Assembly (NCBI GenBank): GCA_007674295.1
Contig: CM017462.1
Span: forward strand, 42,190-106,189
Source: Antonospora locustae
Lineage: Eukaryota; Microsporidia
DNA: 64,000 nt
Direction: 5' to 3'
Made by a program: the position numbers and the translations under genes. Of this stretch, positions 6,252 to 31,401 are shown in pieces (positions within the stretch are counted from its first letter, which is position 1; each line of letters starts with the position of its first letter). The notes beneath the pieces were generated by a model. That model searched no databases. It had not been told where the DNA came from and worked only from the letters and a program-made list of their open reading frames with translations.

Positions 6252-6885
6252 AGCTGCTTGTCCTAAGCAGTTTTATTTTGTTCTTAGAAGTGCTTTTGAA
6301 GTCAACAATTATTTAAATGATGAATTCGGCTGTTAATTCTAATTTCTGGATAAATAAAGCTAAAGTTTTTATGTTTTTACATTGCTGCATAAACAAAAAA
6401 GTATTTTAATTAACATCCAGTTTCGCATAATCAATTAAAAATAGAAAAAATATCGTAAAAATTTATTTCTACTTGTAAAAGGTTGCTGCTTTTTTATTTA
6501 AAATAACTGGTGAATAATCTCTCACAGCGTAATAATAACCATATTATATCAGCATATTTTGTATTTTATGGATGCTACTTATATTTGATTGTCAAACTGC
6601 ATAGTAGGTTCATGAAAACGAATGTTGATTCACAGTATCTGCTTCATTCCTTTATCTGGATATTAATTACATCTGCTTTTCGAGTAAACAAAACAATTCC
6701 GTTTTTATTGCATTAAAAGAGTAAGTAATAAATACTTTTTAATTAAATGAAAGTAAGTTTTTTATTTAGAAACACTAGTATTTAGGGTACCATTCTACAT
6801 TTAATATTCAATATCCATTGTGTTTAAGTAAAAGTAAAAGAATCGAAGCTTTTGTTAATAAAATTTTTTATTTGTTTAAAATTAT

Positions 6886-6901
6886 TTAGGATTAGGGTTA
6901 G
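6886..6901 (+). repeat. Telomere-like TTAGG/TTAGGG words
   Basis: TTAGGATTAGGGTTAG is three imperfect units of a TTAGG(G)-type telomere repeat within otherwise G-poor DNA. It is too short to be a working telomere. A chance origin is possible but unlikely at this base composition. Confidence 0.4.
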
Positions 6902-7132
6902 ATTTTAATTTGAGAACTTTAATAAAAACAAGTGTGTTTGATTTATTTTAATAAAATTGTCAAAATCCGAAATGTAAATAAACAAAAAGAGAAAAGAAAC
7001 AACACTAATTCAAGAATACAAAAGCATTATGTTCTCATACATTTTACAAGGGACTGTTGTTTTCTTTTTAAAAATTTTTTAATTGGAGTTTGTGTTTAAA
7101 TTAAATTGAATAGTTGTGGTTAATTAATACAT

Positions 7133-7240
7133 TTTATGCTAATAAAGAACTAAAAAAAATTCCTTCATAAATAAACTACTTTGTATTATAATTGTACTTT
7201 TATTATGAAGGAATTTTTTTTAGTTCTTTATTAGCATAAA
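7133..7240. repeat. Perfect 38-bp inverted repeat with 32-bp spacer
   Basis: The arm at 7133-7170 begins TTTATGCTAATAAAGAAC and its exact reverse complement lies at 7203-7240, ending GTTCTTTATTAGCATAAA. All 38 positions match, including the run of eight A or T. The spacer is 7171-7202. The DNA or its transcript could form a long hairpin. I see no coding capacity inside and no clear target-site duplication, so a small inverted-repeat transposable element is only one option; a cruciform, replication or structural site is another. Confidence 0.85.
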
Positions 7241-26468: not shown

Positions 26469-26702
26469 ATGTCAGAACTTTTGCAAAGGATTTCTATTCT
26501 GAAAGTTTTTAAGGTAAAACAACTTTATTCATATTCTCGTTATAGGAAGCTTTATAAAGCTTTACAACCGTTTGCCCCACTATGCGCCTATTGCACATTG
26601 GTTCGCGGAAGTTTTTATCAGTGGCATTTTCAGTGTATCGCTGCCCATCGGGGGTTTTCATCAATATGTGCAGCGGATCAGCAGATCTCACACCTCTCTT
26701 AA
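26469..26702 (+). other. Low-A+T island, possible structured RNA or gene remnant
   Basis: About 26,540-26,700 is the most G+C-rich part of the desert. It contains nested complementary words: TGCACAT (about 26,594) with ATGTGCA (about 26,667), and CGCTGC (about 26,639) with GCAGCG (about 26,671), which could pair in a folded RNA. Frames are open on both strands here (77 codons on plus, 60 on minus), and neither peptide is recognisable. A short structured RNA, a recent insertion or a decayed gene would all fit. I checked by eye for tRNA T-arms and for the spliceosomal U2, U4, U5 and U6 cores and saw none. Confidence 0.35.
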
Positions 26703-29700
26703 GAAACTGACATTAAAATAAAAATCGCTATAAATAATAAGAAACATATCATAAATGAGTACGTCTTTGTACTGAATTGACATATAAAACATATAGATTT
26801 TGACTTTACACATATCAAATTTTATAATATAATGAGAAAAATATTTAACTGCTCAAATTAAAAAATATATTTGTTGTTTAAAATAATTATCTTATATAAA
26901 AATAATTAAATAGCATAAATTAATATATGGAGTTTATAATTATTTAAATTGTTAAATAAAACTTTAAAATAGTAATAAAAATATTATGACTGCTTTGTAA
27001 AAGCCAATGGTTGTTGGTTATTATAGTAAAGTGACTTATTTAACTTATTTAAAAATAAGAATTATATAGATATGTGGTACTACTTTGGTCAGTTTTAATA
27101 AGTAGTATAGTATATTTTAATTACACGCACATAACATTATCACTATATGTTAGAAAATAAACAAGAACCTTTAATGTGTAGAATGAAATTTATGGTCTCT
27201 AGGAATTAAATATAATATAGCAAATAGTTTATTACAATGCTAATAGAAACTAGAATTTTTTTATGTCAACATTTTTTACATTAACAGGCCTTTGTTTTGG
27301 ATGTAAATATACGAACAATATTAGAAAACAGAATTAAAAAATGAAAAAGAGTATTACTTGATTCGCTTTGACAAAGTTTTACGAAAAATATGTTTTTTAA
27401 ACAATGTTATTTAAATTAATGAAAAGAAATTTTATAAACATCAAGAGTATTTTTGAATTAAATGTATACGTTTTTTCATACTTTTAAATTATACTTGTAT
27501 AGAGTTACAAATAGCTGTTATAAAAATTACAGAAACTTTTTAAACTATTGACACTTTCAATCAAACTCGAAAATCATTATCATAAAAAAATTATTATTCA
27601 ATAACATAATAGTTGATCAGTAAAAATTTTATGAAAATAAATAAGATTCTTAAAAACGTTAGATAAATATTATTATTCTGTACAATAAATACATTAAAAA
27701 TCAAAAAACTTATATAAATTTGAATAATTATAAAAAGTACCGTTTTAAATATTAGTTTGCTTTTAAAATAATAAAAATAAATATCAAAAGGTCTATCATT
27801 ATATAATAGTAATAAATAATTGTTAGTTAAAATGCAAAAAACAGAAATTTTATGAAATAAATTTTAATAATTATAACTACAAAATTAACATTTATTTTAT
27901 CAAAAAATAAACTATATTTTTAATTAAGAGCATAGAAGTAACAAACATTTGGGTATTAATCATTAAATATACAAAGATCGAATTTTAGTCTAGCCTTATG
28001 ATAATAAACTATATTAAATAAAAAGTTATAGAATATCAGTAATTATTCGACACTTTATATTACTTATATTCGTTTTAAATATACATTGATTTATACTTAA
28101 TATAGTAATAATTATTTTGTTATGTTATGTTCTAAGTATATACATAATACATACAGCTCTGATGTTGTTTCTTATGATGAAAATACAGAAAACTTTTGTA
28201 CAAAATTACTTGAAATTAAATACTACATGCCAGCTTATGTCAACTTTTTGTAATTTTCTATTTAAACTAAATAAATTATATTGTTAATTTTTTATATTTA
28301 AAAACTATCATTATTAATATTTTTATAATATGAGGATTTCCTAATTATAGATATATATAGTTATAGGATCTAAAAGGTCTTATTTAAAAAATGTGTAATT
28401 AAATAATATGTTGTGTTAAAATTATGAACTTTTAACTTTTATTAACTGTAATATTATTCAAGCTAAAAAAAACAAAACAATTAAGATTAACAATTTTTTA
28501 AAGATATTTTATATATGTGGTTATATACAAGAATGTGCATTATAAAAGCTGTTCTTGAATACTAAGTAGAGCCTGTGTATGCATAGTATACAATTAGTTA
28601 TTACAAATGCTGAACTTTTTAGATATATTTATAACATTTTCTATAAACAAAAATTTGTGATTGAAAATATTATATTAAATTGTTATCATTAGATTGGAAA
28701 TTTAAAAACATTTATAATTAATTATATAATTGTATAAGAGCTATATAAAAGCATTACTTAATAATAAAATTCAAAGTTATCAATATAAGATAAACAAAAA
28801 ATACAAGAATATATAAATATGACGAAAGATAATAAAAATCAATATTCAGTATTCAATTTAAACATAGAAACAAAGAGAACAGTGTGAATTATGGAACAAT
28901 TCGGCTTTTTTAATTGACTTTTAGTTAACTTATTACACAAAATCTACTATTTAAAAGCATATGGTGTTGAATTTATTTAAAAAGAGCGTTTTCTATACAT
29001 CAAAATGGTTGTGAAATAGCTATCTGAATATATCTAAAAAATGTATAATAAATAACAAATTTTTAAAACACTTTAAATAAATTATATAACGTAGCTTATT
29101 TAGTATACATATTATTCGATATTAAATTTATATATAGCAAAAGCATATAGAAAATTTTATTTTATTTGAAATGCATAAAACATGGCAAATATAACTACTT
29201 TATGAATTTTTTAATATTCATTAATTACTCAAAATAAAATATTAAGATATCATAAACAATAAACGCACTCATACTCAAACCTAGTAAATAAATTGTACAA
29301 TAAAGAGTATGAGAAAAACATTAACGATATGTAGTGACAAGAAGACTCTTTTTCTGATAAAACAGACCGTAAATAGGTCAAAACTATAATCTATGAGAGA
29401 CAGGAAAATGCGAAAGGTAAAGACCATTTATTAAACTTTATATCATAGTGAATTTTTACTATTATTCTAACAATTTTGTTGTAAGTACACTAATAAGTCA
29501 AGTAAATAATTTAAAAATCTACATAAAATATTTTATTTTTATTACATAAAATAACAAATACATACAATGCTTATACCTATCAAAATAATAATAAAAATTA
29601 AATAAAACAATATGTCATTATTTCATTAAAAATTATTTAGTTAATTAAAAAGATACTAAAACCATGTTTGTCGTAAGAACTAAATAAAAACAAATTAATA

Positions 29701-31401
29701 GTTGTTTTAAGTGAAAATAAGTATTAATTTAATAAATAATGAAACTTTACTCTTTTAATTACTTTTATTATTAGTAATATTTATTGTTAAAACTAAATAA
29801 AAATTATAAATAATGTTTCTAATAATGCAGCAACAATTTTATAAATAAAGAAATATAATGATAATAAAGTAAAAAATTAATACCATTCTCTATACAATGA
29901 AAAAATATTAACTGACACAAGATAGTGATGTATAAGTGTTTATTCAATGTATTTATTAACTGTTTTTTTTTAATTTTATAGTATTATATGTTTTTTGCTT
30001 GATTAGATTTGTAAATAAAATAATTAGACTCCATTTTACATATTTCCCTATTTGGTCAATAAGAGTTAATCACATGGTATAAAGTAGAAAAGCATTTTTA
30101 TGTTATTTACAAGAATAAACAAATACTTCTAGTTATATATTACATTTTTTTGTGTTTAATTTAAATTTACTAATAAAAACATCATATAGAAGGGTAATAA
30201 AATATATCTAAAAATCATTTCATTATTTAATACCAAAAAAAGTGCTCATTATATAAAATGATAATAATATGCATCAAAGTTATAAAAAAATATTTAATGC
30301 CCTAAAATAGAAAAGAAACAACCCTAAATCAAAATTGTCTATTAAACACAGAATTAATAAGAAATCAACATTATTTATGCTTATAAATATTTGAAATTGG
30401 AATTTCAACTAAAATCTAAATAGAAACTCATTATATAATAATACATTATATGGAAAAGTAATCACCGTGATAACTGTAGATAGGAGGTATTTAATTGGTA
30501 CTGGCGAATTAAAGAGACAATGCGAGATGTTTTTAGTTTCTTCTAGGTACCATAAAGATTGTTTTATTCTGAAAAATAAAACTAGTTAAACATTTAAATT
30601 GCACCGTCTAAGCTTTATTAGAAATAAAAATTGAATCCAAAACCTATTATTTAACCAATTCCCTCAAATTATAAATAAACATTTATATTGATAAAGAATA
30701 TAAATAATATATTATATTTAAATTTTTATGTCTCTTAAAAAGCTTTCATTAAAAAGAGATATTATAACATCTTTGAATGTAAAGTAATGCTTTTCGTTTA
30801 ATACTTTTCTCAGTTTTATTTTTGTTTCGATAAAAATTCTTACTAAGAGAGACTATAAAGAATATGAATGAATCAAGAAGGTAAAGAGGCATCAACCCAT
30901 TATTGTGTATTGTGCACTAGTGCTAGCGCTCACTTATCACTGAGCATCGAAACTAACGCATTATAAGCTGTCATAAACACACTTCAATAAAATTTTCGCA
31001 TTTTCAATAACTAACAGATCCTACAAATCCGTGGTATTTCTAGTGAATGCAGATGTTTTCGTTTAAATACCACAAAGTTATTCTGTTTTGCAGGAGATTG
31101 TGAAGATTCCTCCAGTAAACAGCAAGTGCTAATTTTGAACGAAAAGTTATGCAACAAGGTTGAGTAAGCTCGTTAGGCTATTGAAAGTTGCTGTGTTCTT
31201 AAACTCAGAGAAAGTATAAATCTCGTAAACGACTACATTTTACTGGTGTAGATCAAATTATTGACATAGCTCCTAACTCGGAATAACAACAAAACAAGAG
31301 GGAATGGAATTATTGCAGTGAAGTAGTGATTGTATTTAAGGTTTGAAATAGCTAAGTTGTTCGACTCTTTATTATTGGTTTAGCACCATAACAAGTAGGG
31401 G

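Follow-up and report, generated by a model that had tools for sequence, protein, structure and literature searches.

Does a chromosome of the microsporidian Antonospora locustae carry a regional centromere that can be recognized in its DNA? The question is raised by a 64,000-nucleotide stretch (the window) of contig C16 (CM017462.1, GenBank assembly GCA_007674295.1), which spans C16:42190-106189 and reaches the contig end; C16 comprises 106,189 bases, and the assembly 17 contigs and 3,170,203 bases. Between the ribosomal protein genes uL18 and eS1, the window holds a 25-kb block that is AT-rich and free of supportable genes. An earlier note on this DNA had proposed that the block could be a regional centromere or other heterochromatin, with a large old insertion or a chimeric assembly as alternatives. 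Having followed the block across the assembly, we consider it probable, from the sequence, that it is the centromere of its chromosome, of the AT-rich regional type specified by CENP-A. Recent microsporidian surveys have either found no such regions or proposed very different ones. The map presented here provides 16 testable centromere candidates, of which two have exactly known borders, and in addition a CENP-A-like gene.

An AT-rich block without supportable genes on C16

From the stop codon of uL18 (position 6251) to that of eS1 (31402) lie 25,150 bp with a GC content of 20.6%, compared with 47.7% on the left flank (1-5450) and 46.1% on the right (32095-64000). One-kilobase windows wholly within the block range from 15.6 to 29.3% GC, and every one of the 61 AT runs of at least 20 bp in the window lies inside it. 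The earlier description of 80-90% A+T captured this strong bias and overshot it slightly, the mean being 79.4%. Its picture of sharp bounds holds for the left edge, where composition changes abruptly, and less well on the right, where GC already stands at 32-39% over the final ~500 bp. Both border genes face inward, as stated earlier and borne out by their strands (plus on the left, minus on the right).

The longest stop-to-stop frame in the block has 89 aa; in 60 first-order Markov simulations the longest frame averaged 91 aa. Frames of at least 60 aa number 25, near the top of what chance gives (mean 12.8 and maximum 26 in the simulations). No tRNA was found in the block, a structured RNA search gave no Rfam match there up to E = 1, direct repeats of at least 40 bp are lacking, and tandem repeats are limited to ten short arrays of 1.9-4.5 copies each. 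The block is real and not a product of chance, and an artefact is not likely; the claim of an A+T-rich region without a supportable gene stands, with 46-48% GC around it and no frame longer than chance inside.

Nor is the block merely ordinary spacer lengthened, since intergenic DNA elsewhere in the window (7,617 bp up to 57.2 kb, by our own gene list) has 40.3% GC. Over the same range the gaps between genes measure 4-745 bp, apart from a single 2.8-kb gap at 34655-37479, and the remark that other gaps are tens of bases is therefore only partly true. Third-position GC is 41% in uL18 and 44% in eS1, mixed (39-65%) in nine genes ~1 to 5.4 kb from the block, and 49-67% in 15 genes more than 6 kb away, which is a tendency and not a smooth gradient. 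The lowered values in both border genes indicate that the composition shift is not confined to the block, and they fit a regional effect extending slightly past it.

One block per contig

If the block is a centromere, each chromosome should have one, a check that had been set beforehand. By AT-run patterns and GC samples together, 16 of the 17 contigs carry one AT-rich block, contig C9 being the exception, and none carries two by AT-run patterns over the whole assembly, a screen that a second block of smaller size or weaker AT bias could escape. This recurrence supports the candidate centromere proposed earlier.

The pattern TTATTA followed by 18 A/T letters has 81 matches genome-wide, all of them listed, and on 15 contigs they gather into a single cluster apiece, none wider than 22.2 kb (C10 with one match). 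It has no match on C9 or C16, the C16 block being known from the window itself. Two similar AT-run patterns agree among the matches listed (100 of 171 and 100 of 131, reaching C11 and C12), and a first, all-A/T pattern gave 1155 matches per strand which, among those listed, all fall on C1.

GC was sampled in two sets, of 20 samples of 300 bases and 80 samples of 200 bases. All 19 samples outside blocks in the first set have 38-60% GC; in the second, 27 samples inside block ranges have 15-34%, 47 outside have 35-56%, and six on C9 have 23-35%. Mid-block samples have 15-30% GC in all 13 blocks on contigs other than C1, C4 and C16. With patterns and samples combined, the blocks measure ~17-27 kb, with a mean of 23 kb. 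In total they take up about 370 kb of the 3.17-Mb genome, or 11.7%, as AT-rich DNA in which no genes were detected, at a single place on each chromosome; gene absence was judged in the C16 and C1 blocks and in 19.4 kb of the C4 block, and the other 13 blocks were sampled. That a very small genome retains so much DNA of this kind argues that it is needed.

Telomere repeats are not visible in 16 contig starts or at the C16 end, so the contigs may be incomplete.

A decayed repeat common to all blocks

Word counting in the C16, C1 and C4 blocks yielded TTACCTTAAA, with nine occurrences there and a single one in 126 other loci totalling 221,604 bases; it is the end of a ~100-bp element. A repeat profile fitted over three rounds finds 20 places of at least 33 bits in these blocks (nine in C1, seven in C16, four in C4), with a best simulated score of 8.7 bits in ten third-order Markov simulations per block; the model named R1 gives seven copies of at least 34 bits in the C16 block. 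Among the profile places, two C1 copies are the arms of one palindrome, and one C4 copy is a mirror in an inverted arm. Outside the blocks the profile finds ten places of 14-23 bits, all in contig starts (28 sequences, 238,454 bases, 160 kb of them contig starts). These relatives are GC-richer than the block repeats and lie in the first 10 kb of C6, C7, C8 and C10-C14.

As the profile was trained on block copies, its scores in the blocks are high partly by construction, and an independent test was needed. We used a 22-base pattern allowing three mismatches, designed on the C1, C4 and C16 blocks, where it had 10 matches, against two in 238 kb outside and none in three simulated sets; it has none in three 3-kb pieces of C6, C13 and C10. 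Genome-wide it matches 61 places, compared with one for the reversed control. Fifty of these lie in the 16 blocks, which make up 11.7% of the genome, with at least one in every block, and 40 of the 50 fall in the 13 blocks unused for its design. Of the 11 matches outside, two lie no more than 1.4 kb from a block end, and C9 has no match. The resulting density is 135 per Mb in blocks versus 3.9 per Mb outside.

The element resembles an old dispersed repeat, copies of which build up in the blocks. Its alignment gives no predicted base pairs or RNA fold. A coding origin was considered and rejected: an overlapping 67-aa protein-like frame matches only itself in the genome and no Pfam family. There is a slim chance, judging from sequence, that the repeat is a mobile or recombining centromere-associated element that seeds or maintains CENP-A chromatin; if so, A. 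locustae would be the first microsporidian with sequence-marked regional centromeres, on about a ninth of its 3.2-Mb genome.

The C16, C1 and C4 blocks are otherwise mostly dissimilar in sequence. Two longer segments of the C16 block recur nearly unchanged on other contigs (Table 1), and the search that found the shorter one, of 135 bp, gave an additional weaker match (81%) on C10. The stretches around the C6, C13 and C10 partners have 21-30% GC, and each partner falls in or at the AT block of its own contig. The C16 query for long matches covered window positions 6252-9252 and 11902-31401, leaving out 9253-11901. The search behind the 436-bp segment scored a single candidate, missing even the window's own copy, and the count of long segments common to C16 and other blocks is a lower bound.

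Anatomy of the C1 and C4 blocks

The C1 block comprises 23.2 kb without a gene (C1:144187-167385), bordered by a RING-finger gene on the left and a histone H3 gene on the right, both facing inward. The right border is formed by a divergent H3-H4 gene pair at C1:167386-168341. Inward-facing border genes are thus found in both blocks covered from gene to gene (C16 and C1). A tRNA gene also lies within ~2.4 kb of each right border, tRNA-Leu on C16 and tRNA-Cys on C1, two cases being too few to conclude from.

In the C4 block, two inverted copies (149630-153930 and 156972-161270), 99.9% identical over 4.3 kb, flank a 3.0-kb core; neither the C16 nor the C1 block has comparable large inverted arms. 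Both C4 arms have inverted ends of their own, 377 bp long, and on this account resemble an inserted element. The pair as a whole (C4:149623-161279), inside the AT block, could be a pair of mobile elements, a centromeric palindrome or a product of the assembly.

The longest frames in C16, C1 and the 19.4 kb of C4 measure 89-101 aa, like those of Markov simulations, and none of eight frames tested from the three blocks has a Pfam match over the cut-off, a search that decayed elements could escape. As a check for repeat-induced point mutation (RIP), we computed the TA/AT index, which is 1.00-1.03 in the three blocks and 0.60-0.68 in three gene-rich stretches, and the substrate index, which is 1.02-1.06 and 1.28-1.45, respectively. 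By the usual thresholds the TA/AT index of the blocks would be RIP-like and the substrate index mostly not. The indices are ambiguous, as neutral AT-rich DNA yields similar values. The word TTAGGG, counted on both strands, occurs five times in C16, five times in C1 and once in C4. It forms tandem pieces in the C16 block only, C1 and C4 having single words; short TTAGGG-like tandem pieces stand at window positions 6880-6900 and 8490-8505, near the left border of the C16 block.

Candidate kinetochore genes

A gene set for a CENP-A-based centromere is present: a CENP-A-like H3, a CENP-C cupin and Ndc80. CENP-A is marked by an H3 fold with a divergent N-terminal tail and a lengthened loop 1. Of three H3 genes, those at C1:167.4 kb and C1:323.3 kb have ordinary tails, and the third, at C14:98073-98420, has a divergent tail and a loop 1 longer by five residues than that of both other H3s and of PDB H3.3; with both marks, it is a candidate CENP-A-like H3. 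A CENP-C cupin domain is found at C4:203336-203575 (33.5 bits, above the curated cut-off of 29), and Ndc80 at C11:91661-92002 (136.7 bits, with no signal in controls).

Comparison with known centromeres

The following comparisons draw on passages of the papers cited. The nearest known counterpart is the AT-rich regional centromere of filamentous fungi, as in Magnaporthe oryzae (PMC6667624), whose centromeres occur, as here, one per chromosome, are AT-rich (at least 67%) and are poorly transcribed or gene-free, as the blocks are without genes in the parts covered; its genome likewise has no other long AT-rich stretch and no motif or repeat specific to centromeres. The M. oryzae centromeres measure 57-109 kb, compared with ~17-27 kb here, where the decayed ~100-bp repeat is found in all 16 blocks. 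They are also backed by CenpA chromatin immunoprecipitation and 5-methylcytosine data, whereas the blocks are known from sequence alone. Malassezia centromeres (PMC7025860) share with the blocks the GC minimum, the single occurrence per chromosome and a short motif that is enriched yet not exclusive; they span 3-5 kb with a core below 1 kb, and the bound region contains active genes, in contrast to ~20 kb that is gene-free where covered. The C4 block, with its arms around a core, is like the inverted-repeat centromeres of the Candida tropicalis type (PMC7292649), a layout absent from C16 and C1, and the inverted ends of the C4 arms suggest an inserted element instead. A point centromere, with one short conserved element per chromosome, does not describe the blocks, in which the repeat is multi-copy, divergent and also found near contig starts.

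Among microsporidia, the candidate centromeres of Microsporidia sp. MB (PMC13174016) are, as here, one gene-poor region on most chromosomes and experimentally unconfirmed, with two chromosomes possibly showing pairs or splits and a CENP-A ortholog reported. They are GC-rich, methylated, 30-82 kb long and laden with long interspersed nuclear elements and Ty3 elements. The C16 block is not of that type, given its low GC and the lack of Pfam matches in the eight frames from C16, C1 and C4. In Encephalitozoon (PMC10158259), chromosome cores are gene-dense and GC-rich throughout, and centromeres are unlocated and suggested to be (sub)telomeric; there are two H3 genes, one a proposed CENP-A, and H3 and H4 are paired on opposite strands, as they are on C1. 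PMC13174016 states that point centromeres have been reported for Unikaryonidae, citing PMC10158259; that text itself states that it found no evidence for them.

A regional centromere of this type is already known, and the idea for A. locustae is already in print as a remark: one clause states that 'similar regions in A. locustae' show locally reduced GC (PMC13174016), with no coordinates or analysis in the passages covered. One of the papers cited for this clause, PMC10759460, contains no occurrence of 'centromer', and neither do PMC12558613 and PMC10845963. According to PMC13174016 (2026), more data are needed to confirm centromere positions in any microsporidian species, and the literature searched contains no experimentally located microsporidian centromere. 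Within the listings and passages covered, to which Chen et al. 2020 does not belong, we found neither the block map nor the common repeat, and no description of the block borders or of C9 as an exception.

Proposed mechanism and competing explanations

If the C16 block is the centromere, CENP-A nucleosomes would occupy part or all of it and recruit CENP-C and the Ndc80 complex, a state presumably inherited epigenetically and not via a short DNA signal. Low recombination and low transcription within the block could favor AT-biased mutation, and the sequence would drift to AT-richness; old copies of the ~100-bp repeat would pile up and decay there, persisting as their deletion is either opposed or without cost. 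Now and then, exchange between clustered centromeres may copy segments from block to block, and the convergent border genes would exclude promoters.

Alternatively, the blocks could be constitutive heterochromatin or graveyards of repeats, a single one on each chromosome, with the kinetochore elsewhere, either subtelomeric or holocentric. Their AT-richness, their lack of long frames and their many decayed repeat copies would suit this explanation, as would the (sub)telomeric centromeres argued for Encephalitozoon (PMC10158259) and a 2025 survey that gives no centromeric regions by GC or repeats in the passages covered and mentions holocentricity (PMC12449221); the word locustae occurs nowhere in the text of that survey. 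Heterochromatin, however, offers no obvious reason for a single block of similar size on 16 of 17 contigs, and the first 10 kb of 16 contigs, which are contig starts and not necessarily near telomeres, have 42-53% GC; we regard this explanation as unlikely. Replication origins are AT-rich in many fungi, and long origin or pairing regions, one per chromosome, could surround a small core to which centromere function is confined. The 3.0-kb core between inverted arms in the C4 block, a layout known from some yeast centromeres, points the same way. The sequence data do not tell this account apart from that of a centromere proper; even so, such regions seem a very improbable account of the blocks.

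The two alternatives named in the earlier note fare worse: neither can account in general for blocks that recur once per contig and have a native repeat and near-identical segments in common. A large old insertion at one place, whether horizontal or a mobile element, would explain the sharp composition change at the left edge and the 436-bp segment that is 99% identical on another chromosome. It is nevertheless hardly credible for the C16 block, given a block on 16 of 17 contigs, no coding capacity seen within it, a native decayed repeat, and lowered third-position GC in the border genes, by which the shift reaches past the block. A chimeric assembly, or contamination by AT-rich DNA, we hold to be equally far-fetched, as contamination would not distribute itself once per contig and the blocks have native repeats and near-identical segments in common.

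Several observations weigh against identifying the blocks as centromeres. Frames of at least 60 aa exceed the simulated mean in all three blocks (C16, C1 and C4), and in C4 their number, 23, passes the maximum of 22 in 60 simulations, the inverted arms being counted twice. The dip in GC is shallow in the C13 block (29-34%), and except on C1 and C16 the block ends are placed only to within a few kilobases, with the help of some of the GC samples. The ~100-bp repeat occurs near contig starts as well and hence is not exclusive to blocks. As for the kinetochore genes, the CENP-C match is modest, with below-cut-off signals in four of 14 control genomes, and the best PDB matches of the C14 H3 are H3.3 (87 bits), with H3/CENP-A chimeras at ~81 bits. 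This similarity to H3.3 is not decisive, since CENP-A evolves fast.

The same holds for C9 (171 kb), which has no AT-rich block. The AT-run patterns, which alone cover its 64-171 kb, give a single spot at 20.06 kb by two patterns (among the matches listed) and zero by the TTATTA pattern; this spot and a 26-bp AT run at 7.6 kb are its only standouts. Its first 6.5 kb have 43-52% GC and are mostly one long reading frame, followed by 23-40% GC from ~6.5 to 38 kb in the parts sampled and 33% at 61-64 kb, and the AT-rich part is at least partly coding. C9 may be a broken chromosome arm, as the lack of visible telomere arrays at contig starts or the C16 end would allow, or its centromere may not stand out; the composition change near 6.5 kb may likewise mark a broken arm or a join. 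Foreign DNA was considered for C9 and rejected: a gene that we take to encode an RNA-polymerase-subunit-like protein has no close second copy (the next match, on C1, has 33% identity) and hence lends no support to a second genome, though this is one gene only.

Feature coordinates and other observations in the window

The features of the C16 block and its borders are collected in Table 1.

Table 1. Features of the C16 block and its borders, in window coordinates. For repeat copies, scores are given for R1 and then for the second model. PDB 6zu5 is the Paranosema (Antonospora) locustae ribosome.
Feature	Position	Strand	Evidence
uL18 ribosomal protein gene, left border, 3' end facing block	5451..6251	+	265/266 residues identical, PDB 6zu5 chain LD0
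AT-rich gene-free block, candidate regional centromere	6252..31401 (C16:48441-73590)		GC, frames, recurrence on 16/17 contigs
Hairpin-forming inverted repeat, 47-nt arms, 94% complementary	7133..7240		
135-bp segment, also in AT-rich regions of C6 and C13	8657..8791		99% C6:103666-103800; 98% C13:65624-65755
~100-bp repeat copy	10914..11010	+	45.6 bits, E 5.6e-13; 34.5 bits; training copy of both
436-bp segment, also in C13 AT block	13829..14264		99% C13:57798-58233, opposite strand
~100-bp repeat copy	14362..14449	-	34.9 bits; 33.1 bits; training copy
~100-bp repeat copy	15049..15141	-	51.8 bits; 47.8 bits; profile-found, later in training
~100-bp repeat copy	17553..17648	+	53.4 bits; 52.3 bits; profile-found, later in training
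~100-bp repeat copy	20031..20120	-	53.3 bits; 50.7 bits; profile-found, later in training
~100-bp repeat copy	23467..23564	+	49.6 bits; 46.3 bits; profile-found, later in training
~100-bp repeat copy, GC-richest part of C16 block	26507..26607	-	64.1 bits; 67.1 bits; training copy
eS1 ribosomal protein gene, right border, 3' end facing block	31402..32094	-	230/230 residues identical, PDB 6zu5 chain SB0
tRNA-Leu(CAG), 0.9 kb beyond right border	32301..32381	-	ARAGORN; Rfam RF00005 59.6 bits

Elsewhere in the window, the 2.8-kb gap at 34655-37479 is without a frame of 100 aa, and its part at 36001-37000 is strongly purine-rich, with a GC skew of 0.44, resembling a broken lysine/glutamate-rich gene. 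Near the end of C16, at 57244-62126, stand large leucine-rich repeat (LRR) genes with internal tandem repeats of 69 and 153 bp; LRR-type families may have halted the assembly short of the telomeres.

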